Source of the DNA: Halichondria panicea | Lineage: Eukaryota > Porifera > Demospongiae > Suberitida > Halichondriidae | Direction of reading: 5' to 3' | Length of the DNA stretch: 64,000 nt | Assembly (NCBI RefSeq): GCF_963675165.1 | Contig: NC_087387.1 | Coordinates: 309,001-373,000 of the forward strand | Part shown: in pieces, positions 35,011-62,425 of the stretch | Numbering within the stretch: the stretch's first letter is position 1 | Layout of the letters: each line of letters starts with the position of its first letter | The notes under the pieces: model-generated | The model's input: the letters and a program-made list of their open reading frames with translations, nothing else | Told to the model about the DNA's origin: nothing | Databases searched by the model: none | Program-made: the position numbers and the translations under genes

Positions 35011-35555
35011 CATGAGCTTTGCTATAAATACACACAACACTTTTCCACGGGAACAGCTAGCTAGCTGACAGTATAGCTCTTACTGGTTTGTTTATTAGTT
35101 TTCAGAGGCTAGATTCCTTACTGAAATGTAAGTGGTTGAGTAGCCTTGCCACTACGACCCACTGAAATTAGGCCATTGACGTCATAAAATATCGACGTTT
35201 CTCTTCTAAGTATCAAAATTATTGATAGAGGGTAAACTGCATGTGCACAAGTTTTAGTTAGTAGTATTATAGACACGACTATTTTGCTTGTTCAGATGTT
35301 ACTATAGACTCAGCAATAATTCCCAAAATTAATATTATTATTACGGTTCAATAGCTGGGTACATCCTACATCCTGCTGATCCATAACCTGTTGACTATTG
35401 ATATTTAGCAGTTGAATGGCCTCAGTTTTGCTTTGACTAGACTGAACTCTGGGAACTGTGTATGACTTAATTTCACACTTACACAGTTTAGCTTTCTTTC
35501 CTGTAAAGTCAGCCCTTGTTCTATATGGCTGTGCATAACAAGGGATTCATTGCTG

Positions 35556-35565
35556 TATTTAAAAG
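35556..35565 (+). promoter_or_regulatory. TATA-like box of Cys-rich copy A
   Basis: tatttaaaag lies 51 bases before ATG 35607. The same box at the same distance occurs before copy B (41212-41221) and copy C (48362-48371), and the whole ~250 bases upstream are conserved between the copies. Confidence 0.55.
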
Positions 35566-35606
35566 GTTCAAAACTCTAGGTATCAAACAATTTCAAGCGA
35601 GTCGTC

Positions 35607-37908
35607 ATGACACCCACACTCTCTTTGCTCGCATTATGCAGTTCTGTGCTGCTCGTTCAAGCTCAATTCAACTGTCCGGACATTTCCGAAGTCTGTGACA
35701 GTAATCCCTGTACAAACGGTGCTCGCTGTCCAAGATTCCTCAATTCTGAATGCAGAGTGAACACTTGTGATGGAATATGCTCACCAATTTTCTTCTTTCG
35801 AGGACGCAATGTCACAAGTCGATGCGAAACGCTCCGAACATGTGTGTCGAGAAGATGTCCTCCTCGTAGGTCGCAGTGTGTTGATGAGGTAGTGGAGTCT
35901 TGCAACAGGAGAGGCCGGTGCAGACAGAGGCTTGAAGGAAGATGTATAGTACCTCCCACAACACAGCAACCCAATAGTAAGTCCATGCATGCATACTGCA
36001 CTGTATTGCATGATGCAGGCCCAACACACCACCCCCTACCATAAATAATTTGTTACGACACTTTAATTGTATATATAACCTTATGGGATTAATCAGTGCA
36101 TTAATTCACTTCTCCCTGCAGCAGTCTCAACTTCAGCCACTCCCCTACCAACTGACAGCACCCCCTTCACTACGTCACCAACAGGGAATCCATTTACTAC
36201 CAACCCTTCACCGACTACACCGACTAATTCTTCTTTATGTACCCAAGACTGTTCCAGTTTGGGTCTGCAGTGTGTTCCAATTTCGTCTACTGTAAATGGC
36301 GTAACTATAGTAACTGGGACATGTTTGTCACCGATTGGACGCAATTGTGAAGACATTGATTGAGCTGATAATCAAGAGTGTAGTATACAATCGTTTCCTG
36401 AGAGAAATATAACATTTTCACAATGTACTCCTTCTGATAATTCCACACAAATGATGACTATGTTCTCATGTGCAACAACACAATGCCCTGAGGGAACTGT
36501 GTGCATTGATTTACGTTCTGGAGACATGCAAGTAACGGGGATATGTTTAGCAACAAACTGTGCGAACACTAACTCTTGTCAGTCGGGTGATGTCTGCACA
36601 TTAGTTCCAGATGAATTTAGATTGGACAATATCAGTTCTGTCTGCGTTCCAGGTTCTGTTCAGTTCCAGCTTGGAACCGAGACGTGTGAGCAAAGTGATC
36701 GTGTATGTCCAAGTCGTACGATTTGTCAAGAAGTATTTCTTGATGACCTTCCTGGTACCATTTGTGTGCTTAGTCAACCTCCTGCGGATTGCAGTCAAGT
36801 TAACTGCAGAGAAGATGAAGAGTGCTTAGTAGTAACGTCTTTTGCTTCACGCTCTTCAGTTAGCTGTCTTCCGAATAACACTTTCCCTCTCCTCTTACAA
36901 ATTTTGGAATTCCTTGGTATAGTGGAAAGTTCAACAGCAACTCCTACTTCAGTTACCTCAACAGAATTACTTACAACCCTCTCCGGCACTCTTGTTCCAC
37001 CAACACCCTCGTCAAATACGAGTTGTCCCTTCACTTGCTCGTTTGGAACAACTTGTGAGTTTTTAAATGGATTCCCAACCTGTGTACAACCAACAACATG
37101 CACAGACGATTTTACTGCATTCTGTATGCAAACCGGTTCTGTCTGTCGAGAATCCAATGGCACATCACGATGTGTTTCTCCAAGCAGTTGTGAAGAACTA
37201 GCGACTGTGTCACCATGCCCTAATGGATCGCAATGTGTTGTAATACCTCCGTTTGTATTTCCAGGCCTTAATGATACCACAGCAACCTGCTTGCCTCTGA
37301 TTGGTCGTAGCTGTGAAGAGATAACTTGTAGTGAAAATGAAGTGTGCTTAGTGACAGAGCTAGCAGAGAGGGAATTGACAGCTGCTCAATGTGAACTATC
37401 CCGAAATGTAATCTCTCTTATACCTGAGACGTGTGCTACTCTGCAATGCAACGAGGGAAGCGTGTGTGTCGATCTACAGATAAATGGATTCCCTGTGACA
37501 GGTGCATGCCTAGAAACAAACTGTGGAAACAGTGGAAATAACACGGAATGTGATGGTGGTAGTAGGTGCATCGAGGTGCCTTCCGAATTTGAAATACCGG
37601 CAGAATCGTTGTGTGTTTCTTTTAATGTGGATCCTCAGCTTGGAACTCAGACATGTGCTGAAAATGGACGAGTCTGCGAGTCGTTCCAAGTTTGCAACGA
37701 GGCATTCATTAATGGTAGTATAATTGGTACGGCTTGTAGCCAGTTTTCAAGTATCATTGCTTCAACTTGCCAAGCCTCCATGTGTGAAGATGGTGAAGAA
37801 TGTATACTTACAACAGTTGAGGGCTTTGGGACAGTGCAGAATTGTTTATCTACCGAAGCTGCTGATACATCAGCAATGTTTTTTGAGTTTATTTTCGCAA
37901 ACATTTAA
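35607..37908 (+). pseudogene. Cys-rich modular secreted protein, copy A (in-frame TGA; likely pseudogene)
   Basis: Two exons: 35607-35976 and 36122-37908 (intron phase 1). Exon 1 encodes a signal peptide (LSLLALCSSVLLVQAQ) and an Arg/Cys-rich domain. The second exon starts with a Ser/Thr/Pro linker, then repeated modules with the spacing C-x3/4-C-x5-C (CATTQCPEGTVC, CSQVNCREDEEC, CEEITCSENEVC, CATLQCNEGSVC). TGA at 36361-36363 replaces the Cys codon of the CEDIDC motif kept as TGC in copies B and C. Translation would stop after 203 of 718 codons, although the frame stays open to 37908. This copy lacks the middle exon of B and C. The family is not recognised; the modules loosely recall follistatin/EB-type disulfide domains. 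It probably encoded a secreted or matrix protein. Confidence 0.7.
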
Positions 37909-38311: not shown

Positions 38312-38919
38312 TTAACATACATCATGGTCAATATGCAGACCATTTAACTTTTCCTGTATACATACAGTATAATGCAAGTCACTAGCGGAGTATGTACTGT
38401 TGCTATGGTAATCTACAAATCTATCCACAAGAGCCTTCTGAAAACTTCCACCTCCAACAGTCAGTAGCAGTCTACCGTCAAACAGACTGGCTTCTTCGAC
38501 CAAAGAAACGAATCTTGCATTCGATGTATACGATGATGATCCATTGATATCCTGTGGAACGTATTCTGATGCATTAACAGTTAACATAGAGATCATTTTG
38601 TGTGCCTCCTCTTTGCAGTCTTTAGCGGGATGCCAGTGCCCTTGATACTGACAGGCATCAGTACCGTGTTCGCCAATGTCTTTGATAAATATTGTTCGAT
38701 TGAGTGGAATCTGCATCTTATTGGAGACTGCCTCTAGAAGCAGCTGAACTCTCCTCATGCAGCAGCTGTAAAAACCAGTTTGATTTGAACTGTTTGTATT
38801 CTTGTGTGAATTGAATGCAAACTCCAACAACTTCGCGAACCGAATGTGAACAGAAATGTAGTCGTTTGGTTTTAGTCTCTTGGATTTCACAAATTGAGCA
38901 GCTTGAGATTTTACTTGTC
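38312..38919 (-). pseudogene. glycosyltransferase-like gene, copy A (3' remnant)
   Basis: Only the C-terminal ~200 codons remain (KSKRLKPNDYISVHIR to the shared terminus HIDHD.C). Homology to copies C and D stops abruptly at ~38919 in the middle of an exon. The next bases belong to an R-family repeat, followed by a piece of acetyl-CoA carboxylase. There is no start, membrane anchor or N-terminal half, so it cannot make the full enzyme. Confidence 0.85.
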
Positions 38920-39585: not shown

Positions 39586-40441
39586 ACTGTCTCTAAATGA
39601 TGCTTCCATTCCCATCCGTGTGTTCATCACCAGTGACAACGGTGTGTCTGTTCGTACACACATGTACAGGGAGGTGGAGAACCCACGCACAAAAGAGGTG
39701 TGGTCTAATGCATGTGATATGCTGTCATGTCATACCCCCACAGCTTGTGTTTGAGAACTACGACCAATCAGAATCAGGGTCACTGAATGGCCAGAAGGTC
39801 AATACCCCGTACCCCAGCAAAGACCACCTTCAACAGAAGAGATACATTGCTCAATCCATGGGAACCACTTATGTGTACGACTTCCTGGAGCTTTTCAGAC
39901 AAGTAACCCACACACTTCCCACACACTTCCCACACACTGCCCACACACTGTCCACACACTGGCTATGTGTGTACATTATTTAGGGAGTGATGAAACAATG
40001 GGAGCGCTACATTGGTCAGGTGCGGAGGTCAAGAGGAGATAAACTGACTCTACCAAACTATGACAAAGTGCTCAACAGTACAGAGCTAGTGTTGGATGAT
40101 CAAGGGGTGCTCAGAGAGGTCAATAGGGTCGCTGGCGAGAATGAGGTGTGTGTAGTGTAGTGTACTCTGACCCCTAAGCTATTCTTAGCGTTCCTTCAGG
40201 TTGCCATGGTAGCATGGCGTGTAAGTATGCTGACTCCGCAGTATCCAGAAGGCAGGGACATGATCATCATTGCCAATGATATCACGAATCAGATAGGGTC
40301 GTTTGGCCGGGCCCGAGGAGGACTGATTGTTCCAACAGGCCTCAGCTCTCAGCCGGGAGCAAGGAATCCCGAGACTCTACATTGCTGCCAACAGTGGGGC
40401 AAGGATAGGCCTAGCAGAGAAACTCAAGCAGCTGCTTGCAC
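39586..40441 (+). pseudogene. acetyl-CoA carboxylase carboxyltransferase fragment, decayed
   Basis: Four exon-like pieces (39586-39697, 39744-39902, 39984-40145, 40200-40441) with good splice borders encode part of the carboxyltransferase domain. Evidence is VFITSDNGVSVRTHMYREVE, then NTPYPSKDHLQQKR and AQSMGTTYVYDF, then ELVLDDQG, then [19 protein letters not shown] and [10 protein letters not shown], all matching animal ACC order. After GSFG the frame breaks: the expected [20 protein letters not shown] continues in another frame, and that frame also has a TGA. The fragment begins next to R repeats and ends exactly where the unit B duplication starts (~40442). It has neither a biotin-carboxylase part nor a 3' end. 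Confidence 0.82.
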
Positions 40442-41262
40442 ATAATACACTCGTATAAACACAGTATACTACAATCATGTGTAAGCTAAAAGTGCATTGT
40501 ACAATCAATTGTATGTACATTAAAATTATATGAACATAATTATAATTTTTGTGTATAATTATAATATAATTATATACACACACATACACATGCACACGAC
40601 ACCTATACACCTGTAATAACAATGAGAGGATATACCACACCTAAGAGGAGAATATATGCACCCATATATCCTCCGCTACCGTGGTTACTCCGAGGCGGAG
40701 CTGAGGGGTATGTAACCATGGTATTTTTACTGGTTTGTTTATTAGTTTTCAGAGGCTAGATTCCTTACTGAAATGTAAGTGGTTGAGTAGCCTTGCCACT
40801 ACGACCCATTGAAATTAGGCCATTGACGTCATAAAATATCGACGTTTCTCTTCTAAGTATCAAAATTATTTATAGAGGGTAAAATGCATGTGCACAAGTA
40901 GTAGTATAGACACGACTATTTTGCTTGTTCAGATGTTACTATACACTCAGCAATAATTCCCAAAATTAATATTATTATTACGATTCAATAGCTGGGGATT
41001 TTATACATCCTGCTGATCCCATAACCTGTTACTATTGATATATAGCAGTTGAATGGCCTCAGTTTTTGCTTTGACTAGCCTGAACTTTGGGAACTGTGTA
41101 TGACTTAATTTCACACATACGACAGTTTAGCTTTCCTTCCTGTAAAGTCAGCGCTTGATGATGGTGTGTATGACTGTGCATAATGCATGCATAACAAGGG
41201 ATTCATTGCTGTATTTAAAAGGTTCAAAACTCTAGGTATTAAACAATTTCAAGCGAGTCGTC

Positions 41263-43759
41263 ATGACGCCCACGCTCTCTTTGCTCGCATTATGCAGTTC
41301 TGTGCTGCTCGTTCAAGCTCAACTCAACTGTCCGGACATTTCCGAAGTCTGTGACAGTAATCCCTGTACAAACGGTGCTCGCTGTCCAAGATTCCTCAAT
41401 TCTGAATGCAGAGTGAACACTTGCGGTGGAATATGCTCACCAACTTTCTTCTTTCGAGGACGCAATGTCACAAGTCGATGCGAAACGCTCCGAACATGTG
41501 TGTCGAGAAGATGTCCTCCTCGTAGATCGCAGTGTGTTGATGAGGTAGTGGAGTCTTGCAACAGGAGAGGCCAGTGCAGACAGAGGCTTGAAGGAAGATG
41601 TATTGTACCTCCCACAACACAGCAACCCAATAGTAAGTCCATGCATGCATACTGTACTGTATACTGCATGATGCAGGCCCAGCACACCCCCTGCTATAAA
41701 TAATTTGTTATGACACTTTAATTGTATATAGCCTTATAGGGTTAATCAGTACATTAATTTACTTCTCCCTGCAGCCGTCTCAACTTCAGCCACTCCCTTA
41801 CCAACTAACAGCACTCCCTTCACTACGTCACCAACAGGGAATCCCTTTACTACCAACCCTTCACCGACTACACCAACTAATTCTTCTTTATGTACCCAAG
41901 ACTGTTCCAGTTTTGGTCTGCAGTGTATTCCAATTTCGTCTACTGTAAATGGCGAAACTATAGTAACTGGGACATGTTTGCCACTGTTTGGACGCAATTG
42001 TGAAGACATTGATTGCCCTGATAATCAAGAGTGTTTTATACAATCGTTTGCTGAAAGAAATATAACATACTCGCAATGTGCTCCTTTTTCTGACATTTTT
42101 CGAGTGATGCCCTCATGTGCAACAACACAATGCCCTGAGGGAACTGTGTGCATTGATTTACGCTCTGGAGACATGCAAGTAACGGGGACATGCTTAGCAA
42201 CAAACTGTGCGAACAGTAACTCTTGTAACACTCAGTTGGGGGAAGTTTGCACATTAGTTCCAGGTGAATTTGGATTTGACAATATCAGTTCTGTCTGCAT
42301 TCCAAGTTTTACTCAGTTTGAGTTCGGAACTGAAAGTTGCGAGCAAAGTGGTCGAGTATGCCCTGACCTTACAGTTTGTCAAGAAACATTTCTTAATGAC
42401 GATATTTTCGGTGCTTTTTGCATTGTTAACATACTTAACACGGATTGCAGTCAAGTTAGCTGCAGTGAAAATGAAGAGTGTGTAACAACCTCTCTTTTTT
42501 CTAGCTCTCAGAGTGTAGCTATCTGTACGCCAAACAGCATTATCCCTCTCCTCTTACAAATTTTGGAAGCCCTCGGTCTAGTGGAAAGTTCAACAACTAC
42601 CCCACCAAATAGTAAGTCCATGCATGCAAATTGTACTATATACTGCTGTAAGCAATGCAGACCCATCCCTTTGTGTGTAATATTGTTTTGTCTGGTAAAC
42701 ATAAATAACGTATTCAAACATGTATAATTATAGGGTTAATTAGATTTGCTTCTCCCTGCAGCAGTATCAACTTCAGCCACTCCCCTACCAACTAACAGCA
42801 CCCCCTTCACTATGTCACCAACAGGGAATCCATTTACTACTCTTGTTCCACCAACACCCCCGTCAAATACGAGTTGTCCCTTCACTTGCTCGTTTGGAGC
42901 AACTTGTGAGTTTTTAAATGGATTCCCAACCTGTGTACAACCAACAACATGCACAGACGATTTTACTGCATTCTGCATGCAAACCGGTTTTGTCTGTCAA
43001 GAATCCAATGGCACATCACGATGTGTTTCTCCAAGCAGCTGTGAAGAACTAGCGACTGTGTCACCATGCCCTAATGGATCGCTATGTGTTGTAATACCTC
43101 CGTTTATATTTCCAGGCCTTAATGATACCACAGCAACCTGCTTGCCTCTGATTGGTCGTAGCTGTGAAGAGATAACTTGCAGTGAAAATGAAGTGTGCTT
43201 AGTGACAGAGCTGGCAGAGAGGGAATTGACAGCTGCTCAATGTGAAGTATCCCGAAATGTAATCTCCCTTATACCTGAGACGTGTGCTACTCTGCAATGC
43301 AACGAGGGAAGCGTGTGTGTCGATCTACAGATAAATGGATTCCCTGTGACAGGTGCATGCCTAGAAACAAACTGTGGAAACAGTGGAAATAACACAGCAT
43401 GTGATGGTGGTAGTAGGTGCATCGAGGTGCCTTCTGAATTTGAAATACCGGCAGAATCACTGTGTGTTCCTTTTAATGTGGCTCCTCAGTTTGGAACTCA
43501 GACATGTGCTGAAAATGGACGAGTCTGCGAGTCGTTCCAAGTTTGCAACGAGGCATTCATTAATGGTAGTATAATTGGTACGGCTTGTAGCCAGTTTTCA
43601 AGTATCATTGCTTCAACTTGCCAAGACTCCATGTGTGGAGATGGTGAAGAATGTATACTTAGAACAGTCGAGGGCTTTGGGACAGTGCAGAATTGTCTAT
43701 CTACCGACGCTGCTGATACATCAGCAATGTTTTTTGAGTTTATTTTCGCAAACATTTAA
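41263..43759 (+). CDS. Cys-rich modular secreted protein, copy B (open reading frame intact)
   Basis: Three exons: 41263-41632, 41775-42611 and 42762-43759 (734 aa). Both introns are phase 1, so exon 2 is symmetric. The signal peptide is at residues 1-20 (LSLLALCSSVLLVQAQ), followed by an Arg/Cys-rich N-terminal domain. Thr/Pro/Ser-rich linkers then alternate with disulfide modules of the type C-x3/4-C-x5-C-x(10-16)-C; N-glycosylation sequons are frequent. There is no TM segment or GPI-like tail that I can see beyond the hydrophobic FFEFIFANI end, so a secreted or matrix protein is most likely. Exon 3 lacks the first ~260 codons seen in copies A and C: the linker NPFTT is fused directly to LVPPTPPSNTSC. 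It faces enzyme copy B tail to tail. The family is not recognised. Of the three copies this is the only one with no visible break. Confidence 0.75.
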
Positions 43760-44180: not shown

Positions 44181-45952
44181 TCAACATGCATCATGGTCAA
44201 TATGCAGACCATTTAACTTTTCCTGTATACATACAGTATAATGCAAGTCACTAGCGGAGTATGTACTGTTGCTATGGTAATCTACAAATCTGTCCACAAG
44301 AGCCTTCTGAAAACTTCCACCTCCAACAGTCAGTAGCAGTCTACCGTCAAACAGACTGGCTTCTTCGACCAAAGAAACGAATCCTGCATTCGATGTATAC
44401 GATGATCCATTGATATCCTGTGGAACGTATTCTGATGCATTAACAGTTAACATAGAGATCATTTTGTGTGCCTCCTCTTTGCAGTCTTTAGCGGGATGCC
44501 AGTGCCCTTGATACTGACAGGCATCAGTACCGTGTTCGCCAATGTCTTTGATAAATATTGAGTGGAATCTGTGTCTTATTGGAGACTGCCTCTAGAAGCA
44601 GCTGAACTCTCCTCATGCAGCAGCTGTAAAAACCAGTTTGATTTGAACTGTTTGTATTCTTGTGTGAATTGAATGCAAACTCCAGCAACTTCGCGAACCG
44701 AATGTGAACAGAAATGTAGTCGTTTGGTTTTAGTCTCTTGGATTTCACGAATTGAGCAGCTTGAGATTTTACTTTCGAGCTGAATGGTATTTGGGTAAAG
44801 GGTAGCACACAATGATGCATAGTTTTTGGATCTGTAAATGGTCTTGTAAATTTTCCTTGCCAGCTAACGAAAAGAACACTGGCATTTAGTTTGGAGGAGT
44901 CCAAGTAGTTTACTAAATGGTCCATAAGTTGAACTAGTGATAATGAAACGTCACGATTTACACAAAACACTTCTTATGGAGAATTTTTGGTCGTCAGTAA
45001 TCGTTCTGTTAAAATCTTTCTGCTGCTCTTTTCTTAGTACATCTTCAATGGCTGGTGTCAGCGATTTGTATGCTGTATCCGTGCAAGTAAGAATTGGTTT
45101 GTCTTTATTACTTGAAAAAATACTCTTTAAAGAGGAGTCCATTGTCTTGTGAATCTCCCTCGGTAGTACAAATATGTGAGGTGAAAAGTAAACAAAAATA
45201 ATGTTTCTAAAGGATTTTCTCAAGAATGAATCAATCAGACTTTGTTTATTGCCTCCAACACACTCGGTATATCTCTTGTGGAATAACTTCATGTCAAGAA
45301 GCTCTTGAATATCGATATAGTTACTGTCAGGATTCATTTGAAATCCGCTCATTCTCGAGTTTAGAACAAAAGGTTCTACACCTGTAAAATTCCATCTTGT
45401 AGATCTAGCTAGGGACAGAAATTCATTGTAATGGGCAAAAGCATTCGTAAACTGCTCCGCATACACCATTGATATCATGTATCGTTTAAAATCAACTTTT
45501 TCTACAGTAGTCTGCTCTTTCACTTTGACTACTTTGTTTGTTGACTGGCTTTGAAAACCCCATTTCGATTTTAGCGACAACAAAAGATGATTCTGCAAAA
45601 ACAATCAATGTACACTACCTCAACCTTTATAGTTATATAGTCACACAAGCACACGTACTGATAGACTGAATAACTTTTAATAATGGCCCTTTGGTTAACT
45701 TCTAAATAGTAGTGTAGCTAAATTTATATAGTCACAAGTGAAACTACTAAAAAATGGAGGCTATAGATAGTATATATATATATAGTTCTAGAATTAACCA
45801 ATTTATGTAGAAAATCAATTCTAGCTTACTGCAGTGACTCCAGGCCTGTAGGTCCGCAACAAGTTATTGTTCAGGTCTACTCGGAAATATATAACACAGC
45901 AACTGAACACTGTCAGCAACAGTAGAGTTGTGTAGACCCAGGAGAGTTTCAT
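44181..45952 (-). pseudogene. glycosyltransferase-like gene, copy B (two frameshifts)
   Basis: Exon 1 (45952-45830) encodes the signal anchor; exon 2 spans 45592-44181. Compared with copies C and D, the frame breaks twice. A 2-base loss near 44974 falls where C reads KFSIKEVFC and B reads KFSIRSVLC then stop. An 8-base loss near 44559 removes part of the codons for NRTIFIKD. A 9-base in-frame loss is also present near 45229. No full-length product is possible. Confidence 0.85.
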
Positions 45953-46587: not shown

Positions 46588-47596
46588 TCACTGTAGCTTC
46601 CTCAGTGCGTCTTGTAGGATGTCCACTTCATACTTGATATCGCTCACCAGGTTCTGCACTGAGCTCTTGTCCTTGATGATGTCCACACTCTGGGTGTAGG
46701 GGTTGTAACGCACAGAGAATGGCCGCGGGATTGTACGTGCAAATTCCCTATAGAGAGAAGAGAAACGAAGTATACAAATAAGGACACTTGGTCAGTAAAT
46801 GATATATTTAGATCCCATACATTTGAGTATATTTAGCAGGGAACTACAGCTATTATAGTACCGGTACTATATTATAACCTAGTATAAACAATACATGCAT
46901 GAGTGCATACAATTATGGGTACAGCATTGTTATCAGTTTTACACCTGGTACACAATGAGTAACAGTATAGGTATACCATATATATATAGCTGGTTATTTT
47001 TGTATGAGGGAAATTATACATGCATAATTATAACCAAAACAATTTCGGCCATACACAATTCCTCTTAGTCATAGATGCACAATGTATTGCAAGTGTGTGT
47101 ATGGTCAGCAGTACGGATATTACTGTAGTCACTCACATCAGCTTCTGTTTAGCATTTTCAAAGCTATTGGCCAAGAAGTAGACTGGTTGCATCTCTGTGA
47201 TGGGGTACTTCTGAAAAGAGGTTTTGAATGGATCGAGGGGACGCACATCAGGCTTGTCAGACAGGCAGTACTGCATGTGTGTGTGTGTGTGTGTGTGTGG
47301 GGGGGGGGTCTCAATTTGCAATAAAAATATGGAGCTAGCTTTATTTCGTATATAGAGGGTTAGGATTAACACAAGGTATATATACAACATACATGTCCAC
47401 ATCAAAGCTATGGAAGCTACCGGCACTTTAATGTGGACATGTGCACGTCAGTCATGTTTTAGGAATTTTGAGCACTAAAAATATCTCTCTCAGCTGATAC
47501 CTCCAACTCCCCAAAGGAGGAGAGTAGACCAGCTCCATATGCCTTGGTCTGCCCATTCTGCTTGCACAGACCAAACTCAATGGTAAACCAGTAGAG
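46588..47596 (-). pseudogene. PAH: phenylalanine hydroxylase, duplicated last three exons (5'-truncated copy)
   Basis: Exons 47596-47501 ([18 protein letters not shown]), 47270-47137 ([17 protein letters not shown]) and 46747-46588 ([18 protein letters not shown] to stop) match the main PAH gene exon for exon with equal lengths. They remain open. Upstream the copy ends in an intron at the duplication joint (~47660). The catalytic HxxxxH exon and everything N-terminal are missing, so no enzyme can be made from it. Confidence 0.88.
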
Positions 47597-48411: not shown

Positions 48412-51400
48412 ATGACGCCCACACTCTCTTTGCTCGCATTATGCAGTTCTGTGCTGCTCGTTCAAGCTCAACTCAACTGTCCGGACATTTCCGAAGTCTG
48501 TGACAGTAATCCCTGTACAAACGGTGCTCGCTGTCCAAGATTCCTCAATTCTGAATGCAGAGTGAACACTTGTGGTGGAATATGCTCACCAACTTTCTTC
48601 TTTCGAGGACGCAATGTCACAAGTCGATGCGAAACGCTCCGAACATGTGCGTCAAGAAGATGTCCTCCTCGTAGGTCGCAGTGTGTTGATGAGGTAGTGG
48701 AGTCTTGCAACAGGAGAGGCCAGTGCAGACAGAGGCTTGAAGGAAGATGTATTGTACCTCCCACAACACAGCAACCCAATAGTAAGTCCATGCATGCATA
48801 CTGCACTGTACTGCATGATGCAGGCCCAACACACCACCCCCTACCATAAATAATTTGTTATGACACTTTATAATAGGATTAATCAGTACATTAATTCACT
48901 TCTCCCTGCAGCAATCTCAACTTCAGCCACTCCCCTACCAACTAACAGCACCCCCTTCACTATGTCACCAACAGAGAATCCATTTATTACCAACCCTTCA
49001 CCGACTACACCGACTAATTCTTCTTTATGTACCCAAGACTGTTCCAGTTTGGGTCTGCAGTGTGTTCCAATTTCGTCTACTGCAAATGGCGTAACTATAG
49101 TAACTGGGACATGTTTGCCACTGTTTGGACGCAATTGTGAAGACATTGATTGCCCTGATAATCAAGAGTGCTTTATACAATCGTTTGTTGAAAGAAACGT
49201 AACATATTCGCAATGTACTCCTCTTTCTGAAACTTTCATTTTTCGAATGATACCGTCATGTGCAACAACACAATGCCCTGAGGGAACTGTGTGCATTGAT
49301 TTACGTTTTGGAGGCATGCAAGTAACGGGGACATGTTTAACAATAAACTGTGTGAACAGTAACTCTTGTAACACTCAGTTGGGGGAAGTTTGTACATTAG
49401 TTCCAGATGAATTTGGATTTGACAATATCAGTTCTGTCTGCGTTTCATTTTTTACTCAGTTCGAGTTTGGAATTGAAACTTGTGAGCAAAATGGTCGAGT
49501 ATGTCCTGGCATTACAGTTTGTCACGAAGAATTTCTTGATGACGTTCTTTTTGGTACCTTATGCAATGTTAACCTACTTAACATGGATTGCAGTCAAGTT
49601 AGCTGCAGTGAAAATGAACAGTGTGTAATAACCTCTCTTTTTTCTAGCTCTCAGACTATAGCTGCCTGTTTCCCAAACAGCATCTTCCTTATCCTCTTAC
49701 AAATTTTAGAAACCCTCGGTCTAGTGGAAGGTTCAACAACTACTCCACCAAATAGTAAGTCCATGCATGCAAATTATACTATATACTGGTGTAAAGCAAT
49801 GCAGACCCATCCCTTTGTGTGTAATATTGTTTTGTCTGGTAAATATAAGTAGAGTATTCAAACATGTATAATTATAGGGTTAATTAGATTTACTTCTCCC
49901 TGCAGCAGTCTCAACTTCAGCCACTCCCCTACCAACTAACAGCACTCCCTTCACTACGTCACCAACAGGGAATCCATTTACTACCAACCCTTCACGGACT
50001 ATGTGGTAATCTGGTAATGTGATTTAGGAAATCACCAGAACCTTGGACTTGTAAACAGGATATTAATAGATGTAGAACCTTCTAGATGTTAGTGTAGTCT
50101 TGTACTAGTTTAATCTAGTAACTTCTTATTCTGGAACATTCTTACTGTTCTGTTTTTGTATAATTATTTGTGCACGTTTTATATCTATCAGAGTTCTAAT
50201 TATTTAAGTTATTGACTACAAGACATTACAGACTACACCGACTAATTCTTCTTTATGTACCCAAGACTGTTCCAGTTTTGGTCTGCAGTGCATTCCATTT
50301 CCGCTTACTGTAAACGGCGTAACTACAGTAACTGGGATATGTTTGTCACCGATTGGACGCAATTGTGAAGACATTGATTGCGCTGATAATCAAGAGCGTA
50401 GTATACTATCGTTTCCTGAGAGAAATATAACATTTTCGCAATGTACTCCTTCTGATAATTCCACACAAATGATTACTATGTTCTCATGTGCAACAACACA
50501 ATGCCCTGAGGGAACTGTGTGCATTGATTTACGCTCTGGAGACACGCAAGTAACGGGGACATGTTTAGCAACAAACTGTGCGAACACTAACTCTTGTCAG
50601 TTGGGTGATGTCTGCACATTAGTTCCAGATGAATTTAGATTGGACAATATCAGTTCTGTCTGCGTTCCAGGTTCTGTTCAGTTCCAGTTTGGAACCGAGA
50701 CGTGTGAGCAAAGTGATCATGTATGTCCAAGTCGTACGATTTGTCAAGAAGCATTTCTTGATGACCTTCTCGGTACCATTTGTGTGGTTAGTCAACCTCC
50801 TACGGATTGCAGTCAAGTTAACTGCAGAGAAGATGAAGAGTGCTTAGTAGTAACGTCTTTTGCTTCACGCTCTTCAGCTCACTGTCTTCCGAATAATACT
50901 TTCCCTCTCATCTTACCAAGTTTGGAATTCCTTGGTATAGTGGAAAGTTCAACAACTACTCCTACTTCAGTTACCCCAACAGAATTACTTACAACCCTCT
51001 CCGGCACTCTTGTTCCACCAACACCCCTGTCAAATACGAGTTGTCCCTTCACTTGCTCGTTTGGAACAACTTGTGAGTTTTTAAATGGATTCCCAACCTG
51101 TGTACAACCAACAACATGCACAAACGATTTTACTGCATTCTGTATGCAAACCGGTTCTGTTTGTCGAGAATCCAATGGCACATCACGATGTGTTTCTCCA
51201 AGCAGCTGTGAAGAACTAGCGACTGTGTCACCATGCCCTAATGGATCGCAATGTTTTGTAATACCTCCGTTTATATTTCCAGGCCTTAATGATACCACAG
51301 CAACCTGCTTGCCTCTGATTGGTCGTAGCTGTGAAGAGATAACTTGTAGTGAAAATGAAGTGTGCATAGTGACAGAGCTGGCAGAGAGGGAATTGACAGC

Positions 51401-51926
51401 TGCTCAATGTGAACTATCCCGAAATGTAATCTCCCTTATACCTGAGACGTGTGCTACTCTGCAATGCAACGAGGGAAGCATGTGTGTCGATCTACAGATA
51501 AATGGATTCCCTGTGACAGGTGCATGCCTAGAAACAAACTGTGGAAACAGTGGAAATAACACAGCATGTGATGGTGGTAGTAGGTGCATCGAGGTGCCTT
51601 CCGAATTTGAAATACCGGCAGAATCGCTGTGTGTTCCTTTTAATGTGGCTCCTCAGTTTGGAACTCAGACATGTGCTGAAAATGGACGAGTCTGCGAGTC
51701 GTTCCAAGTTTGCAACGAGGCATTCATTAATGGTAGTATAATTGGTACGGCTTGTAGCCAGTTTTCAAGTATCATTGCTTCAACTTGCCAAGACTCCATG
51801 TGTGGAGATGGTGAAGAATGTATACTTACAACAGTCGAGGGCTTTGGGACAGTGCAGAATTGTCTATCTACTGACGCTGCTGATACATCAGCAATGTTTT
51901 TTGAGTTTATTTTCGCAAACATTTAA
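48412..51926 (+). pseudogene. Cys-rich modular secreted protein, copy C (split by a solo LTR)
   Basis: Exons 48412-48781, 48912-49754 and 49906-51926, all joined in phase 1. It has the fullest architecture: N-terminal domain, middle exon and long last exon. The last exon is interrupted at 50002-50230 by an LTR that brings a stop codon a few codons in. Without the LTR and one target duplication, exon 3 measures 1787 bases, exactly the length of the copy A last exon. The frame after the insertion is open for more than 500 codons, so the insertion looks recent. Two possible splice escapes (donor in the first LTR bases, acceptor at its ttacag end) do not keep the frame. A truncated secreted product of the first two exons is possible. 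Confidence 0.72.
50002..50230. mobile_element. solo LTR (229 bases) with 5-base target duplication
   Basis: It begins TGTGGTAATC and ends GACATTACA (TG...CA ends with short inverted tgt/aca). It is flanked on both sides by GACTA (49997-50001 and 50231-50235). Copies A and B show the empty site, with sequence reading straight through. Five-base duplications and TG/CA ends fit LTR retrotransposons. No internal retroelement sequence remains. Confidence 0.85.
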
Positions 51927-52310: not shown

Positions 52311-54292
52311 TTAACATACATCATGGTCAATATGCAGACCATTTAACTTTTCCTGTATACATACAGTATAATGCAAGTCACTAGCGGAGTATGTACTGTT
52401 GCTATGGTAATCTACAAATCTATCCACAAGAGCCTTCTGAAAACTTCCACCTCCAACAGTCAGTAGCAGTCTACCGTCAAACAGACTGGCTTCTTCGACC
52501 AAAGAAACGAATCCTGCATTCGATGTATACGATGATGATCCATTGATATCCTGTGGAACGTATTCTGATGCATTAACAGTTAACATAGAGATCATTTTGT
52601 GTGCCTCCTCTTTGCAGTCTTTAGCGGGATGCCAGTGCCCTTGATACTGACAGGCATCAGTACCGTGTTCGCCAATGTCTTTGATAAATATTGTTCGATT
52701 GAGTGGAATCTGCATCTTATTGGAGACTGCCTCTAGAAGCAGCTGAACTCTCCTCATGCAGCAGCTGTAAAAACCAGTTTGATTTGAACTGTTTGTATTC
52801 TTGTGTGAATTGAATGCAAACTCCAACAACTTCGCGAACCGAATGTGAACAGAAATGTAGTCGTTTGGTTTTAGTCTCTTGGATTTCACGAATTGAGCAG
52901 CTTGAGATTTTACTTTCGAGCTGAACGGTATTTGGGTAAAGGGTAGCACACAATGATACATGGTTTTTGGATCTGTAAATGGTCTTGTGTATTTTCCTTG
53001 CCAGCTAACGAAAAGAACACTGGCATTTAGTTTGGAGGAGTCCAAGTAGTTTACTAAATGGTCCATAAGTTGAACTAGTGATAATGAAACGTCACGATTT
53101 ACGCAAAATACTTCTTTGATGGAGAATTTTTGGTCGTTAGTAATTGTTCTGTTAAAATCTTTCTGCTGCTCTTTTCTTAGTACATCTTCAACGGCTGGTG
53201 TCAGCGATTTGTATGCTGTATCCGTGCAAGTAAGAACTGGTTTGTCTTTGTTACTTGAAAAAACACTCTTTAAAGAGGAGTCCATTGTCTTGTGAATCTC
53301 CCTCGGTAGTACAAACACGTGAGGTGAAAAGTAAACAACAACGATGTTTCTAAAGGATTGTCTCAAGAATGAATTCATTGGATCAATCAGACTTTGTTTA
53401 TTGCCTCCAACACACTCGGCATATCTCCTGTGGAATAACTTCATGTCAAGAAGCTCTCGAATATCGATATAGTTACTGTCAGGATTCATTTGAAATCCGC
53501 TCATTCTCGTGTTTAGAACAAAAGGTTCTACACCTGTAAAATTCCATCTTGTAGCTAGGGACAGAAATGCATTGTAATGGGCAAAAGCATTCGTAAACTG
53601 CTCCGCATACACCATTGATATCATGTATCGTTTAAGATCAACTTTTTCTACAATAGTCTGCTCTTTCACTTTGACTACTTTGTTTGTTGACTGGCTTTGA
53701 AAACGCCATTTCGATTTTAGCGATAACAAAAGATGATTCTGCAAAAACAATCAATGTACACTATCTCAACCTTTATAGTTATATAGTCACACAAGCACAC
53801 GTACTGATAATAGACTGAATAACTTTTAATAATGGCCCTTTGGTTAACTTCTAAATACCGTATAGCGTGTAATTTTCGTGGGGGCAAAATATTAGTGGTT
53901 TTCGTGGTTGGAGGTCTGACCACAAATATTTTACCCACGAATGAAGCGACCTTGCCTACCTTTACCTGCAGTGCAAGCAGCTACCATGAAAATATTACCC
54001 ACGAAATGTCCCAATATTGCTGAACCACGAATATTTTGTCCCCCGAAAATTACCCGCTATACGGTAGTAGTGTAGCTCAATTTATATAGTCACAAGTGAA
54101 ACTACTAAAAAATGGAGGCTATAGATCTATAATAGTTCCAATTTATGTAGAAAATCAATTCAAGCTTACTGCAGTGACTCCAGGCCTGTAGGCCCGCAAC
54201 AAGTTATTGTTCAGGTCTACTCGGAAATATATAACACAGCAACTGAACACTGTCAGCAATAGTAGAGCTGTGTAGACCCAGGAGAGTTTCAT
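52311..54292 (-). CDS. glycosyltransferase-like type II membrane protein, copy C (intact; O-fucosyltransferase-superfamily-like)
   Basis: Two exons: 54292-54170 (41 codons, phase 0) and 53738-52311; 516 aa. Exon 1 is a signal anchor (LLLLTVFSCCVIYF), placing the domain in the Golgi/ER lumen. Features seen: YAEQFTNAFAHYN followed by VEPFVLN, a central NDYISVHIR with the H-x-R typical of the fucosyltransferase superfamily (GT11/23/65/68), many N-glycosylation sequons, conserved cysteines (YSCCMRR, DACQYQGHW), and a C-terminal EEASLFDGRLLLTVGGGSFQ resembling the GTGSSSF block that contacts GDP-fucose. The superfamily assignment is by motif only and could be wrong; the acceptor is unknown. It faces Cys-rich copy C tail to tail (~385 bases). 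A MITE (53858-54064) sits in its intron. Confidence 0.6.
53858..54064. mobile_element. M1-family MITE with TA target duplication, unit C only
   Basis: Ends ccgtatagcgtgtaattttc and gaaaattacccgctatacgg bound 207 bases. It is flanked by ta on each side (53856-53857 and 54065-54066). The matching intron of unit B has the empty site aaatagtag. The interior is nearly the same as 21260-21466. Confidence 0.88.
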
Positions 54293-54663: not shown

Positions 54664-55266
54664 TCACTGTAGCTTCCTCAGTGCGTCTTGTAGGATATCC
54701 ACTTCGTACTTGATATCGCTCACCAGGTTCTGCACTGAGCTCTTGTCCTTGATGATGTCCACACTCTGGGTGTAGGGGTTGTAACGCACAGAGAATGGCC
54801 GGGGGATTGTACGTGCAAATTCCCTATAGAGAGAAGAGAAACGAAATGATAATAGTATACAAATAAGGACACTTGGCCAGTAATGATATACCCATTTGAG
54901 TGTATTTAGCAGGGAACTATGAGCTATAGTATCGGTACTATATATTGCTCTGGGCTACAAACTACAACATTATACATTGTATTAATTGTCATTTACAAGG
55001 AGATACACATATTATATACATGCTAACAAGAACAATTTCAGCTATACACAATTCCTCTCTTATTAGTCATAGACGCATAATGTATTGCAAGTGTATGTAT
55101 GGTCAGCAGTACGGATATTACTGTAGTCACTCACATCAGCTTCTGTTTAGCATTTTCAAAGCTATTGGCCAAAAAGTAGACTGGTTGCATCTCTGTGATA
55201 GGGTACTTCTGAAAAGAGGTTTTGAATGGATCGAGGGGACGCACATCAGGCTTGTCAGACAGGCAG

Positions 55267-55327
<61 letters not shown>

Positions 55328-56065
55328 GGGGGGGGGGGGTCTCAATTTGCAATAAAAATATGGAGCTAGCTTTATTTCGTATATAGAGGGTTAGGATTAA
55401 CACAAGGTATAATACAACATACATGTACACATCAAAGCTATGGAAGCTACCAGCACTTTAATGTGGACATGTGCATGTCAGTCATGTTTAAGCAACTGTT
55501 AGGAATTTTGAGCACTAAAAATATCTCTCTCAGCTGATACCTCCAACTCCCCAAAGGAGGAGAGTAGACCAGCTCCATATGCCTTGGTCTGCCCGTTCTG
55601 CTTGCACAGACCAAACTCAATGGTAAACCAGTAGAGCTGCAGGGGTGGGGTGGTGGTAAGAGCAGGATAAGGTAGGAGGGAAAATGAAGTAGAAAATCAA
55701 TGACAGGACATTGCACACAATACACACACACACACACACACACACACAACACCTAAACGATCATACATCTATACTGGTAGTATAATTATGCACACACACA
55801 CGCTTAAAAATACTGCAAAGTGAGGAAATGAACTGACCGTGGCTAACTGTTGTACATATTCCTCAGGGGCTCCGAGGGAGGCCAGCCCAATCTCTTGTGA
55901 GAATTGAGCAAATGATGGGTCACAGAACAGGGGCACATGGCCGAGCAGTTCATGACAGACATCAGGCTCAGGGGTGTAGTTTGGCTTGGAGAAATGACGG
56001 ATGTACTGGGTCGAGTGGAACACACGGAAAGCCAGCCCAGCAAGGAAGTCACGCGAGGATAGTAG

Positions 56066-56100
<35 letters not shown>

Positions 56101-56732
56101 GAGGTTTCAAAATAAAATTATAAGAAAATAATAAATAACTTTTGGGTGGAATTGTGTCCACTGCTCATATTACTAGCTCAAACGGGATGCTCGCTTAATT
56201 TAATTTTAACATTTGATGCTAATTAAGTGTATTTTACGACACGGATTTACCAGAAACAAACGTACAAAGAAACTAGACAGTACAAAACCATACAGATATA
56301 GAAAAAGCAAACAGATGCTCGGCCTTGAGAGCCGAGAATGATGGGTTAAAGAGTCTTTAATGGTGCACCAACCCTCCCCATTCATCTGTTGCAATTGCAT
56401 TCAGAACTAAATAATGATTGTAAGCTATTCACTTGGGGCCATGCTGATTGTAAGCTATATTCACATTGGAGGTAATGCTGACATAAAGTATAGAACTTAT
56501 CTTAGACTTGATATTGGCTGCTGTAATACTTCAACTTAGCTTGCATGGCTATGTACTTGTGTAAACTAAATCTGACCTTGAGGGAGGCTTATCTTATAAG
56601 GCTGTATTGTCTGGGCCAGGTGGTTTTGTGGTGGTATATATCTGATAGTATATATCTGATAATTATGGGGATGGGTCTATGTGGTTCCTCTAGGTGGCAA
56701 GCACAAAACAATTATTAACCTCTAAATAGTGG

Positions 56733-56777
<45 letters not shown>

Positions 56778-56884
56778 TGTGAGCAGTAGTGGCTTTACTA
56801 GGTGGCAAGCACAAAACAATTATTAACCTCTAATTTTGGTTCTTAGAATTAGCATTAGGCATTAGTCAAAATAAATAGAGATGG

Positions 56885-56918
<34 letters not shown>

Positions 56919-59900
56919 GAGAGTCAGTAAGTAACCAAAGAGAAGCCAGTTGGTTTATTACTCAAGTATGGGTTATGTGTGTGTAGGAGAGTGTGTGAGG
57001 GTTTCAAATTATTATACTCTAATACCAAAATCAGATTACTCATCTCATACCGTACAGCAGGCAGTTGGGTGAATCAAGGTGAGGATCATTATTGTGACCA
57101 CCGTAGTTATACCCAGAGGAGGTCCGACATGCGTGCACTAATCTCTACAAGTTCAGTGTATTGATGTACATGTCATTTGCAGTCACGTGATAATGTTCAG
57201 GACAATACACTGCACTTGTAATATGTCAGACATCCTCTGGTTTATATAACTGCAGTGTACGTACCTTGGGCTGTGGTCAGACAGCTTGTGTTAGTACTAA
57301 ACTAAAGTCTATTTGGTTTGGATGTTTGTCATACCGATATTAATATTTGTACAGCTCAGGAGAGTGACATTGAACCTATTGTGCCAGGATTCTCTACTGA
57401 TACGAAAATATCCACATACAAAAATAACCCGCTATACGGTAGTTTACTCAATTTCAAAAATTCATTGGATTCCTTGTTAAAAAGCGCTTCTATCTATATG
57501 CTTTAGAGGTGATGACTCCAACCAAAAGTTTCCATATTAATCACATAAATGGCTAAATGAAGCCATAATTGACTACATAACTTCAGGCCAAACTCAACAC
57601 TAGACTTCCCTACTGATTCAGAAACCTGTGATCTTTATAGTTGCAGCTTTTACTTTTAGCTGGGACTGTTCCAGCACCACACAAGTACATACTTTTATGT
57701 ACCGTACCCTTGCGAAAATACGCCCACCCTTTTCTGCAAGAAGTCTAGGCTTATTAGGGGACTGGGCGTTTAATCGCGAACGGCGAGTTTTCATTCGAAT
57801 ATACGCCCACCCGCGGCCTCAAATCGAGGTTTACACTTTGCTATGCCAATTCGTATGAACATTTTATTGACAACAACAATGTTATAAACTAATGCATGAG
57901 TATGATTAAAGCATGACAAGAGAATGAACATGAAGAAGTGGACTCTGACTCTATTCGTTGCTTATTGATGTTAGCAGGAGTACATGAATAGGAGTAAGCA
58001 ACTACTATACAGCCCATACAAACGTGTTGTTATCTCACTGTGTCATGTCACGTCATACTACATGTGTGTAAAACGCCCACATCTCAAGTGGCCTACAACC
58101 ACAATCAAAACAGTGTGGTTAATTACATGCATTGTGCAAGCACACTTGGTAGAATAGGTCCAGGTAGCTAGCTCTTGCACAAAATGAAGAAAAGCAAAGA
58201 AACATGAACACAGCAAAGCAACTGTGATAGAAGTTGCCAAAAAGCTTGCTAGCATTGGTGAGAAAATTAACTGAAGAAGTAGAGAAGCTATACCACAACT
58301 AGAGATGTACCCTGAGAGAAAATAGGTTTTTAATCTAAGGAACAGGATGATGGCTTGGTGAAGCTTGCAGACCGCCTGTGCAATCAATACAAACAATTTT
58401 ACATCAAGTGTAGAGGCAAAGATGCATACTTAAATTTTCAAATTCAGTGGTACGATTTCCTACATTGCGTTGCATCTGGGGTAGAAATGAAGCTCTCAAA
58501 AGACTCACAAGTAATTGACTCAGACTATGAAGAAACTCCTACTTTTAATCTCTTGTTATATACTGCTATGTCTCTCAAGGTTGACGTTGTTTCCTCAGAC
58601 ACACAACTTGCTGCAAGTTGTGTGAGGAAACACAACTTGCTGCAAGTTGTGTGTCTGAGGAAACAATGTCAACCATTGCAAGTAAGAGATGGAGCAACTT
58701 TAGCAGCTTGTCACACCTCTAGTTTAGTTCTCTCTATACACGGTAACCCGGCACCACACACAATGCTAACTGCTTTGCATTGCATCAAACATGTTATTCA
58801 GTAAAGATTAGTTACCAATTTCATGGTGAACAGCCAATTCCGTCTTTTTCTAAGGTTAAGCATTCTCTAGATGATATTAGCTGAGTAGATCTAGATCTAT
58901 GCTATTCTCTAAGTCTTGTATATATATAGTTTCAGCCTAGCCTGCACATGCACTTGCACTCTTGTTGACAATTTCTGTGAGCCTACCATGCAGCCATACA
59001 TGGTCATGTGTACACAAAGTAACCACAGTTTACACTACTACAAGTGTTTGTGACGTATTGAGATAATAACGAATTTATATGGTGTACATAGTAGTTGCTT
59101 ACTCCTATTCATGCATGTACTCCTGATGTTAGATGTAGCAGAAACTTCTCGAAGGATGGTAGGTCATACTCCTACAGAGCAGCTATCAGGTGCTTTGTTT
59201 CAGAAAACCAAGGCAAGGTAACCAAAATTAGCCTGTGTGATAACTTTCTTGGACTTTGTGTTTTCCTTTCTCAGCATAATTATAGGACTACTTGTTCCCT
59301 GCATATACATCTTCAGGGGCAAACAGATCCATGCAGAGAAAGTTATAATGTCTGATCTTGGTCCAGCAAGGAGTATAGTCTTACTAGCTACTACCTAAAA
59401 CTTTCTTTCTTCACTAAAATTAATAGTGAACATGTGGCATTCAGCTACTGCGCATGCTCAACTTCTTATTCTGGGTGGGCTTATAATCGAGCGAAAATAC
59501 CCTCGTGCAAGAACTTCGAAGCAAAAGAGGGGATGGGCGTTTATTCAAGATGGGCTTATTTTCGCGAGGGTAGGGTATATGAATCTGAAATAGCAAGGGG
59601 CTAGTGTGTTCCCACTATAAACATAACAAGCACAGAGGTACTGTACAAGGGGCCAGCAAATAATAATTATGAAACATAGTTAGTTTCTGTACCTGCAACT
59701 GGTCTGAGCCTGAACCCAGTACATGATTGCAGGTATTGAGAGACCTCCTCCAGTTGGGGAATATTGTCCTCCCTGCAGTAAACACAGACAATAGTGTGTG
59801 TGGGTGTGTGTGTGTGCGTGTGTGCGTGTGGGTACACAGTAGGGTTATAAGTATACACAAAGAGCAAGCACACACTTTCAGCTTCAGCTCAAGTGTTTAG

Positions 59901-60425
59901 CCATGAACATACATGCAAGGATCAGTCAATAGCGTATATTCTTATGCTATAATCATATACATGTACGTACACTGCATACAAGGAGCACATGACTCTGACT
60001 CTTACACAGTGCTACTGCATTCAGCATAGTATACCTGAAGCCACAGTTCTCTTGTAGCAGTGGGAAGACATGGTTGTGCTCCTTGCAAGCGTGAGTAGGG
60101 AACAGCTTAATCAGCTCACAAAAGATGGTGCGCCTGTGGAAATATTGTTAATAAAAAATTATTGTCACTGTGTACTTAAATCTAAAATTGTACTTAGAAT
60201 TAGAATTAACTGTACGTACATGTACAATGATAACATGACATATCATATACACAGTCGGTAGTACACACACTGAAATATAATTTCAAACTTGAAAGATGTG
60301 CATTTTGTAGTTCCCAGGGAGATATAGATGTAAGTAAGTGTACTGATATTTAATATTGTAAAATGTACGCTCACCAGGTGTTGACCTCCTTGTCAGTGTA
60401 CTCCACATGAGGTATTGGCTCTCCA
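54664..60425 (-). CDS. PAH: phenylalanine hydroxylase (aromatic amino acid hydroxylase), last seven exons
   Basis: Exons 60425-60375, 60133-60035, 59772-59693, 56067-55838, 55636-55541, 55268-55135 and 54823-54664 (850 nt, phases match). They cover the catalytic and tetramerisation regions: [120 protein letters not shown]. The iron ligands are present: both His of HELLGH and the Glu of WFTIEFGL. The wording is closest to PAH rather than tyrosine or tryptophan hydroxylase. The enzyme converts phenylalanine to tyrosine using tetrahydrobiopterin and O2. The exons for the ACT domain and the start of the catalytic domain were not found up to 64000 and may lie outside. A 3.6 kb intron (56068-59692) contains microsatellites and a TIR element. 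Confidence 0.88.
55271..55340. repeat. (GT)n microsatellite with poly-G end, abutting a PAH splice acceptor
   Basis: About 27 gt repeats followed by ~14 g. On the minus strand this is a CA-rich tract directly before the acceptor of the exon starting at 55268. The matching tract in unit B (47279-47307) is much shorter. Other GT tracts lie at ~56070-56097, 56736-56774 and 56887-56918. Confidence 0.85.
57700..59577. mobile_element. M4 element, ~1.9 kb with terminal and subterminal inverted repeats
   Basis: Ends: taccgtacccttgcgaaaat (left) and, inverted, taccctaccctcgcgaaaat (right), both running into .gccca. Further in, aggagtacatgaataggagt (57976-57995) is inverted at ~59095-59115, with homology on either side. 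It contains a 149-codon ORF (58355-58804) that I do not recognise and no clear transposase motifs. It lies in a PAH intron. It is probably a non-autonomous DNA transposon or a decayed one. Confidence 0.6.
58579..58673. repeat. nested palindrome (~46-base arms) inside the M4 element
   Basis: ggttgacgttgtttcctcag plus acacacaacttgctgcaagttgtgt is followed after a few bases by its near-exact reverse complement ending aaacaatgtcaacc. Each arm holds the smaller palindrome acacaacttgctgcaagttg plus tgt. The 149-codon ORF reads straight through it. Confidence 0.85.
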
Positions 60426-60740
60426 CTATAGAGGAGAATAAAAATACAACACATAAAAACATTTTGGTTCTGCAAGTGATTTGGTAAAGATGGTTACAGT
60501 AAAAAGATGCTAACATAGTATTGTATTGAGTTAGTGAAAGTGTCGATCAGTGCTCTAGTTTACTTTTTTTGCATATCTAGATTATGGTATATCTACATCA
60601 ATTGTGTTTTCATTGAGATTAGTTATGCCTTGTATAATAATGTTTTGAATCACTGTATATGCATGCACTCACTTCCCCCCCCCCCTACTAGTACTATTTT
60701 GACTATTAATAATAATTATATACAAGGAGGATAACATTGA

Positions 60741-62425
60741 TCAACATACATCATGGTCAATATGCAGACCATTTAACTTTTCCTTTATACATACAGTATA
60801 ATGCAAGTCACTAGCGGAGTATGTACTGTTGCTATGGTAATCTACAAATCTGTTCACGAGAGCACTCTGAAAACTTCCACTCCCAACAGTCAGTAGCAGT
60901 CTACCGTCAAACAGACTGGCTTCTTCGACCAATGAAATGAATCCTGTGTTGGATTTATTGATATTCTGCGGAACGTATTCTGATGCATTAACAGTTAACA
61001 TTGATGTCATTTTATTCATCTCCTCTTTGCATTTCTTACCAGGATGCCAGTGCCCTTGATAGTGGCAAGAATCAGTACCGTGTTCGCCAATGTCTTTGAT
61101 AAATATTGTTCGATTGAGTGGAATCTGTGTTTTGTTGGAGATAGCCTCTAGAAGTAGTTGCACTCTCTTCATGCAGCAGCTGTAAAAACCAGTTTGATTT
61201 GAGTTGTGTGAATTGAATGCAAACTCAAATAACTTTTCGAACCGAATGTGAACAGAAATGTAGTCGTTTGATTTTAGTCTCTTGGATTTCACGAATTGAG
61301 CAGCTTGAGATTTTGCTTTCGAGCTGAACGGTATTTGGGTAAAGGGTAGCACACAATGATACATAGTTTTTGGATCTGTAAATGGTCTTGTGTATTTTCC
61401 TTGCCAGCTAACGAAAAGAACACTGGCATTTAGTTTGGAGGAGTCCAAGTAGTTTACTAAATGGTCCATAAGTTGAACTAGTGATAATGAAACGTCACGA
61501 TTTACGCAAAATACTTCTTTGATGGAGAATTTTTGGTCGTCAGTAATTGTTCTGTTAAAATCTTTCTGCTGCTCTTTTCTTAGTACATCTTCAACGGCTG
61601 GTGTCAGCGATTTGTATGCTGTGTCCGTGCAAGTAAGAACTGGTTTGTCTTTGTGACTTGAGAAAACACTCTTTAAAGACGAGTCCATTATCTTATGAAT
61701 CTCCCTCGGTAGCACAAACATGTGAGGTGAAAAGTAAACAACAACGATGTTTCTAAAGGATTGTCTCAAGAATGAATTCATTGGATCAATCAGACTTTGT
61801 TTATTGCCTCCAACACACTCGGCATATCTCTTGTGGAATAACTTCATGTCAAGAAGCTCTCGAATATCGTAACTGTCAGAATTTTGAAATCCGCTCATTC
61901 TCGAGTTTAGAACAAAAGGTTCTACACCTGTAAAATTCCATCTTGTAGCTAGGGACAGAAACTCATTGTAATGGATAAAAGCATTCGTAAACTGCTCCGC
62001 ATACACCATTGATATCATGTATCGTTTAAGATCAACTTTTTCTACAGTAGTCAGCTCATTCACTTCGACTACTTCGTTTGTCGACTGGTTTTGAAAACTC
62101 CATTTCGATTTTAGTGGCAGAAGATGATTCTGCAAAAAAACAATTGTAAGTACACAACCTCATATTAATTATATAGTCACATGTGCTCACATGTATACTA
62201 GATACACTGAATACTATATGAATATATAATAGGTTCTAAATAATAGTGTGGCTAATTTAGTTCTGTCTAGGGTTGAATTAACATAATTCAGATCTAGCTT
62301 ACTGTAGTGACTCCAGGCCCCTTGTTGATCCGCAACAAGTTATTGGGGTCTACTCTGAAATATATAGCATAGCAACAGAGCACTGACAGCAACAGTAGAG
62401 TTGTGTAGGCCCAGAAGAGTTTCAT
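60741..62425 (-). CDS. glycosyltransferase-like type II membrane protein, copy D (intact, most diverged)
   Basis: Exons 62425-62303 (41 codons) and 62129-60741; 503 aa. It has the same design as copy C: signal anchor LLLLSVLCCYAIYF, YAEQFTNAFIHYN, NDYISVHIR, EEASLFDGRLLLTVGSGSFQ and terminus HIDHDVC. It differs by short in-frame losses (a few codons after FAFNSH, and in the segment before TGFISLVEE) and scattered substitutions, so it is an older copy than A-C. No Cys-rich partner or MITE accompanies it; homology to unit C ends near 60725. It lies immediately upstream of the first visible PAH exon, on the same strand, possibly inside a PAH intron. Confidence 0.6.

Follow-up and report, generated by a model that had tools for sequence, protein, structure and literature searches.

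The region analysed is a stretch of 64,000 nucleotides from the sponge Halichondria panicea (positions 309001-373000 of contig C11 in an assembly of 131 Mb and 39 contigs). It is called the window here, and positions without a contig name are window coordinates. Self-comparison of the window revealed head-to-tail copies of one segment, and Self-BLAST together with alignments showed that this tandem array starts near 35.08 kb and runs past the end of the window. Similarity between units stops near 73.4 kb and the phenylalanine hydroxylase (PAH) gene of the last unit seems to extend to about 74.7 kb. The array holds three genes for a cysteine-rich protein (Cys-A to Cys-C), five copies of an enzyme gene (GT-A to GT-E) and four copies or pieces of PAH (PAH-B to PAH-E), in addition to a PAH-intron remnant left of Cys-B (Table 1). 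The copies are ~82-98% identical, varying by segment, and open and disabled copies are mixed within the array. No tRNA gene and no Rfam gene was detected in the window. A preliminary description of this DNA had reported three units (A, B and C) in which the Cys-rich and enzyme genes stand tail to tail, and a unit D with the enzyme alone; this layout was recovered, and base-level alignment of the units bore out both the tandem copies and their breaks. The presence of PAH in the unit as a third gene, the fifth enzyme copy (GT-E) and a Cys-rich paralogue on contig C12 are additions to that description.

Table 1. Genes, insertion and recombination junctions of the array (window coordinates).
Feature	Position	Strand	Remarks
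Cys-rich gene A	35607..37908	+	Exon 1 35607-35976, exon 2 36122-37908; TGA at residue 204
GT-A	38312..38917	-	Last 200 C-terminal codons only; inverted-repeat element 38918-39474 at its border
PAH intron remnant left of Cys-B	40436..40607	-	Match to PAH-E intron 71057-71213
Junction J1, first copy	40608..40727		PAH intron joined to Cys-gene upstream; limits approximate
Cys-rich gene B, open	41263..43759	+	Exons 41263-41632, 41775-42611, 42762-43759; 734 aa
GT-B	44181..45952	-	Exon 1 about 45830-45952, exon 2 to 44181; frameshifting gaps near 44975 and 44560
PAH-B	46603..47600	-	Last three exons only
Junction J1, second copy	47825..47943		Same joint as 40608-40727; limits approximate
Cys-rich gene C	48412..51926	+	Exon 1 48412-48781, exon 2 48912-49754, exon 3 from 49906
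Solo LTR in Cys-C	50002..50230	+	5-bp target duplication GACTA at 49997-50001 and 50231-50235 (by eye)
GT-C, open	52311..54292	-	516 aa; exon 1 54170-54292 (membrane anchor), exon 2 52311-53738
PAH-C	54679..60548	-	5'-truncated: without start and N-terminal exons
Junction J2	60549..60720		PAH intron joined to enzyme 3' flank; limits approximate
GT-D, open	60741..62425	-	504 aa; exon 1 62303-62425, exon 2 60741-62132; without Cys-rich partner

The states assigned earlier to the Cys-rich genes (a TGA in A, an LTR in C, an open B) were found again in the reading frames and the alignment. Cys-A was read as 719 codons, stop included, and its TGA sits where the other copies encode a cysteine. Cys-B consists of three exons free of internal stop codons. 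In Cys-C, the frame terminates at the LTR at residue 439, and another Cys codon is missing downstream of it; since a signal-like start, the N-terminal domain and one module are still encoded upstream of the stop, Cys-C may not be silent. Splicing of the LTR out of Cys-C as an intron was considered and rejected, as an exon starting after the acceptor-like AG found at the 3' end of the LTR would be out of frame (by reading). This LTR belongs to a repeat family with 23 matches in the genome, 8 of which, the window copy included, span the full query; two pairs among the full-length matches have a spacing of ~4.2 kb, as expected of whole elements. The paralogue on contig C12 is intact, encodes 711 aa and has a two-exon layout like Cys-A; the 18 kb around it contain no long match to the array besides the Cys-rich gene itself. 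Like secreted disulfide-rich modular proteins, the Cys-rich product has a signal-like start, a repeated Cys pattern and Thr/Pro-rich linkers; it differs from them in that it attains the cut-off of no Pfam family and that its profile found no match among solved structures. The secreted Cys-rich product proposed before stands. It is probably a protein built on a disulfide scaffold, with stable cysteines and a fast-changing surface.

The whole Cys-rich coding sequence, compared between C12 and B, gave an omega of 0.55, which is below 1 with p 3e-6. In module 1, omega was 1.04 for B vs C and 1.41 for A vs C exon 3, neither value being different from 1. In module 1, B and exon 2 of C keep 23 of 23 Cys columns and differ in 45 of the 205 other columns (Fisher p 0.005). 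Leaving aside the Cys-A stop codon at a Cys site, the module 1 cysteines are unchanged in 6 of 10 pairs, those without C exon 3; each of the 4 pairs that include this exon, which lies behind the LTR, shows a single change. All 32 Cys columns of module 2 are kept in 6/6 pairs, a conservation that is notable only where C12 is one of the pair (three pairs). The Cys-rich protein therefore changes fast on a kept cysteine scaffold. Positive selection on the modules was also considered and proved not to be robust. The comparison of M2a with M1a on all columns of module 1 in five copies yielded p 0.0016, with a single column above 0.9 posterior; two of these five copies come from broken genes, and recombination between copies violates the assumptions of the test. 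The value rose to p 0.046 without that column and the signal vanished (p 0.80) without columns 205-232; in module 2 the test gave p 0.47.

The breaks and open frames reported for the enzyme (A truncated, B frameshifted, C and D open) were likewise confirmed by alignment. The two gaps of GT-B are of 2 and 8 bases, and GT-E, outside the window, has a frameshifting gap of 1 base. GT-C and GT-D share a short membrane-anchor-like exon 1 followed by a large exon 2. Omega between them was 0.61 by ML (p 0.02 vs 1), 0.46 by NG86 and 0.66 by YN00, in agreement with weak constraint. The earlier reading of the product as a type II membrane protein held, and it may well be a glycosyltransferase as then suggested. 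The enzyme resembles the fucosyltransferase superfamily GT11/23/37/65/68 (PF10250) in its type II anchor, the order of its motifs and a weak profile match, and departs from it by scoring below the Pfam cut-off and by having no match to a solved glycosyltransferase. With Pfam O-FucT (PF10250), GT-D reached 17.5 bits and the GT-E fragment 18.1 bits (E 0.002-0.003) against a cut-off of 31.5; such E-values prove little, since L053, another member of the family, gave a match of the same quality to an unrelated Pfam entry (E 0.0034). No Pfam glycosyltransferase match was obtained for GT-C or the other family members scanned. Single-sequence and profile searches of solved structures returned no glycosyltransferase, only a few unrelated molecules, none of them with an E below 0.058. 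Alignment by hhalign to the O-FucT protein of the same genome was not significant, and a scan of viral contigs with the enzyme family gave weak matches or nothing.

Three motifs have been described in the fucosyltransferase superfamily, namely I (HxR), II (acidic) and III (S/T-F), according to PMC3522684. In the C-terminal domain encoded by GT-C exon 2, candidates occur in the same order (HIR 298-300, D354, SF 432-433), short motifs that are suggestive only. The O-FucT protein encoded on contig C8 of the same genome carries HIR 284-286, ATND 365-368 and TF 428-429; the spacing from H to S/T-F is similar in GT-C and in this protein (134 vs 144), whereas that from H to D is unlike (56 vs 84). 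In a nine-member alignment of the family, the R of the HxR-like motif, D-x-G, and G429, G431 and Q434 of GGGSFQ are invariant. The array copies share the HxR histidine with the C10:1.91-Mb and C2:7.63-Mb relatives; the aligned C7, C16, C4 and C10:3.87-Mb relatives lack it. Our opinion, formed on these sequence features, is that the enzyme is rather likely to be a glycosyltransferase of the fucosyltransferase superfamily. It would probably be a divergent type II enzyme of the Golgi or ER within the GT-B fucosyltransferase superfamily (GT-B not denoting here the array copy of that name).

Relatives of the enzyme outside the array were found at at least 11 loci (on C2, C4, C7, C10 and C16; entries L012-L015, L044, L053, L057 and L059) as scattered type II membrane proteins, mostly in long single frames. 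The enzyme is 16-26% identical to the aligned loci of its own family. As the members scanned reach no Pfam family cut-off, the family merits a structural look. A GT10 fucosyltransferase in a long single frame lies at 8268-9608 (+), ~26 kb left of the array (Pfam Glyco_transf_10, E 2e-29).

In the third gene of the segment, the catalytic-domain exons score above the Pfam cut-off for Biopterin_H (PF00351). The array copies are like phenylalanine hydroxylase in these exons, PAH-E also in N-terminal exon-like frames, and copies B, C and D differ from it by lacking the 5' exons. PAH-C and PAH-D begin within a 5' intron of the gene, and the part of PAH-C at about 56.1-59.6 kb is mostly without counterpart in PAH-D and PAH-E. 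Examination by eye revealed neither stops nor frameshifts in the aligned exons of PAH-B, PAH-C and PAH-D. The 5' exons are confined to PAH-E, in unit E just outside the window, as exon-like frames seen by eye at about 73.5-74.7 kb, some of which resemble the N-terminal ACT part of PAH. Judged on these frames, PAH-E appears open as far as it was read.

The recombination junctions are common to different copies. J1 is found at the left borders of both unit B and unit C, unit A having a different left flank, and J2 at the C/D and D/E boundaries, the latter beyond the window; the PAH intron in J2 is a more 5' one than that in J1. Two junctions common to several copies indicate growth of the array by serial unequal recombination, with several copies incomplete from the start. 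Their arrangement points to an ancestral order of Cys-rich gene, enzyme and PAH, multiplied by two kinds of unequal exchange. The lack of a Cys-rich gene in units D and E is due to the J2 breakpoint and not to decay. The last exchanges are recent: dS is 0.008 between GT-A and GT-C (200 codons), and 0.009 between GT-D and GT-E over 191 codons (0.014 over 352).

The preliminary description had pointed out the reciprocal breakage of the two genes, each function surviving although no unit keeps both intact. Three units contain both genes, with one open Cys-rich gene (B) and one open enzyme (C) among them. By plain arithmetic, the chance that these fall in different units is 2/3, so that the reciprocal breakage carries no weight; the pattern is weaker still when the intact C12 copy is counted. 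Other Cys-rich loci among the matches listed are on C12, C3 and C2. The enzyme-family loci listed are on C2, C4, C7, C10, C11 and C16, with none on C3 or C12, and on C2 some 127 kb separate the Cys-rich locus from the nearest of them. The matches listed thus gave no sign of a conserved linkage between the enzyme and the Cys-rich gene, units D and E being unpaired as well.

These observations bear directly on the adhesion or self-recognition system raised earlier as a possibility, taken here as an enzyme-substrate pair under selection for turnover, in which the type II enzyme would glycosylate the Cys-rich modules and the pair would diversify. The two genes are indeed tail-to-tail neighbours in three units, and the known protein O-fucosyltransferases modify small folded disulfide-rich domains (EGF, TSR, EMI; PMC11949838). 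The module 1 omega near 1 between B and C with cysteines kept, and the M2a result on the full module-1 alignment, point the same way. This support is offset by the dependence of the M2a signal on a few columns, by its absence from module 2, by the chance expectation of 2 in 3 for the breakage and by the lack of a partner gene, among the matches listed, beside the Cys-rich genes on C12, C3 and C2, as well as in units D and E. We found no good evidence for a recognition system and little that favours one, and regard the functional pair as unlikely. It is a shade less likely still that the enzyme and its relatives form an expanded fucosyltransferase branch that has not been described before and acts on small disulfide-rich modules, those of the neighbouring Cys-rich protein among them, the array continually making new enzyme-substrate combinations by unequal recombination.

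A different origin of the breaks would be an assembly artefact, in which haplotypes of one heterozygous locus were joined end to end and the breaks are allelic differences; this had been named as a possible refutation of the tandem duplication. Allelic divergence in highly polymorphic marine invertebrates may reach the range of the array copies, and their ~82-98% identity could overlap with it. A diploid, however, has two haplotypes, whereas all five enzyme copies stand in tandem on a single 6.8-Mb contig; moreover, each of the two different junctions is common to two boundaries, and units D and E keep PAH but no Cys-rich gene. Given the five tandem copies and the shared internal junctions, such an artefact is improbable. 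Least credible of all, to our judgement, is gene conversion in which broken copies act as donors into open ones and create variants. The divergence between Cys-B and Cys-C does vary by exon (dS 0.05 in exon 1, 0.11 in exon 2 and 0.03 in module 2), as exchange between copies would give; the same mosaic is expected from ordinary unequal crossing-over, and the array has only one open Cys-rich gene.

We therefore favour ordinary birth-and-death evolution of a tandem array through repeated unequal recombination (probability about 0.85), in agreement with drift after duplication, the second option of the preliminary description. One ancestral segment with a Cys-rich gene (+), an enzyme gene (-) and a PAH gene (-) would have been multiplied into a young tandem array by repeated unequal recombination, the breakpoints of which truncated PAH copies. 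Other copies were broken by point changes, the LTR insertion and the inverted-repeat element, leaving the open genes scattered: Cys-B, GT-C, GT-D, PAH-E as far as read, and the C12 Cys-rich paralogue. We infer a birth-and-death process with redundancy, in which the need for its own function would preserve each gene in some place.

The chicken BG region (PMC4046983) is reported as an example of a birth-and-death tandem gene array formed by unequal crossing-over. The sponge array is like such arrays in its tandem copies, shared junctions and off-array relative, and in having truncated and point-mutated copies beside open ones. It differs from them in that its segment holds three unrelated genes, so that different genes are lost from each copy. 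Gene families normally expand and contract in this manner, and the array is not a new kind of system. No published account of such a locus was found among the literature matches listed. The locus offers a worked case of a three-gene segment multiplied with each copy incomplete in a different manner, for which adaptive reciprocal loss is unnecessary. It is also a caution that, where units are few, complementary pseudogenes should not be taken for a system.

Several other features were observed around the array and elsewhere in the genome. Left of the array, blocks of a 164-166-bp satellite-like repeat lie in opposite orientations at 25085-26400 and 31254-34400. The inverted-repeat element bordering GT-A (38918-39474) belongs to a family of elements with inverted-repeat parts, also present at about 1198-1507, 19830-20960 and 77431-77726. 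Frames at 22902-23701 (-) gave a weak, sub-cut-off match to the Fz domain together with a transmembrane-like stretch, and 19160-19732 gave a weak kinase match. Silicateins carry Ser in place of the active-site Cys. Among the 77 cysteine-protease matches in the genome, the active site was inspected in 11, and a Ser for Cys replacement was seen in one, a cathepsin-L-like frame on contig C9 (L032, C9:2570213-2570782) that matches cathepsins better than silicatein.
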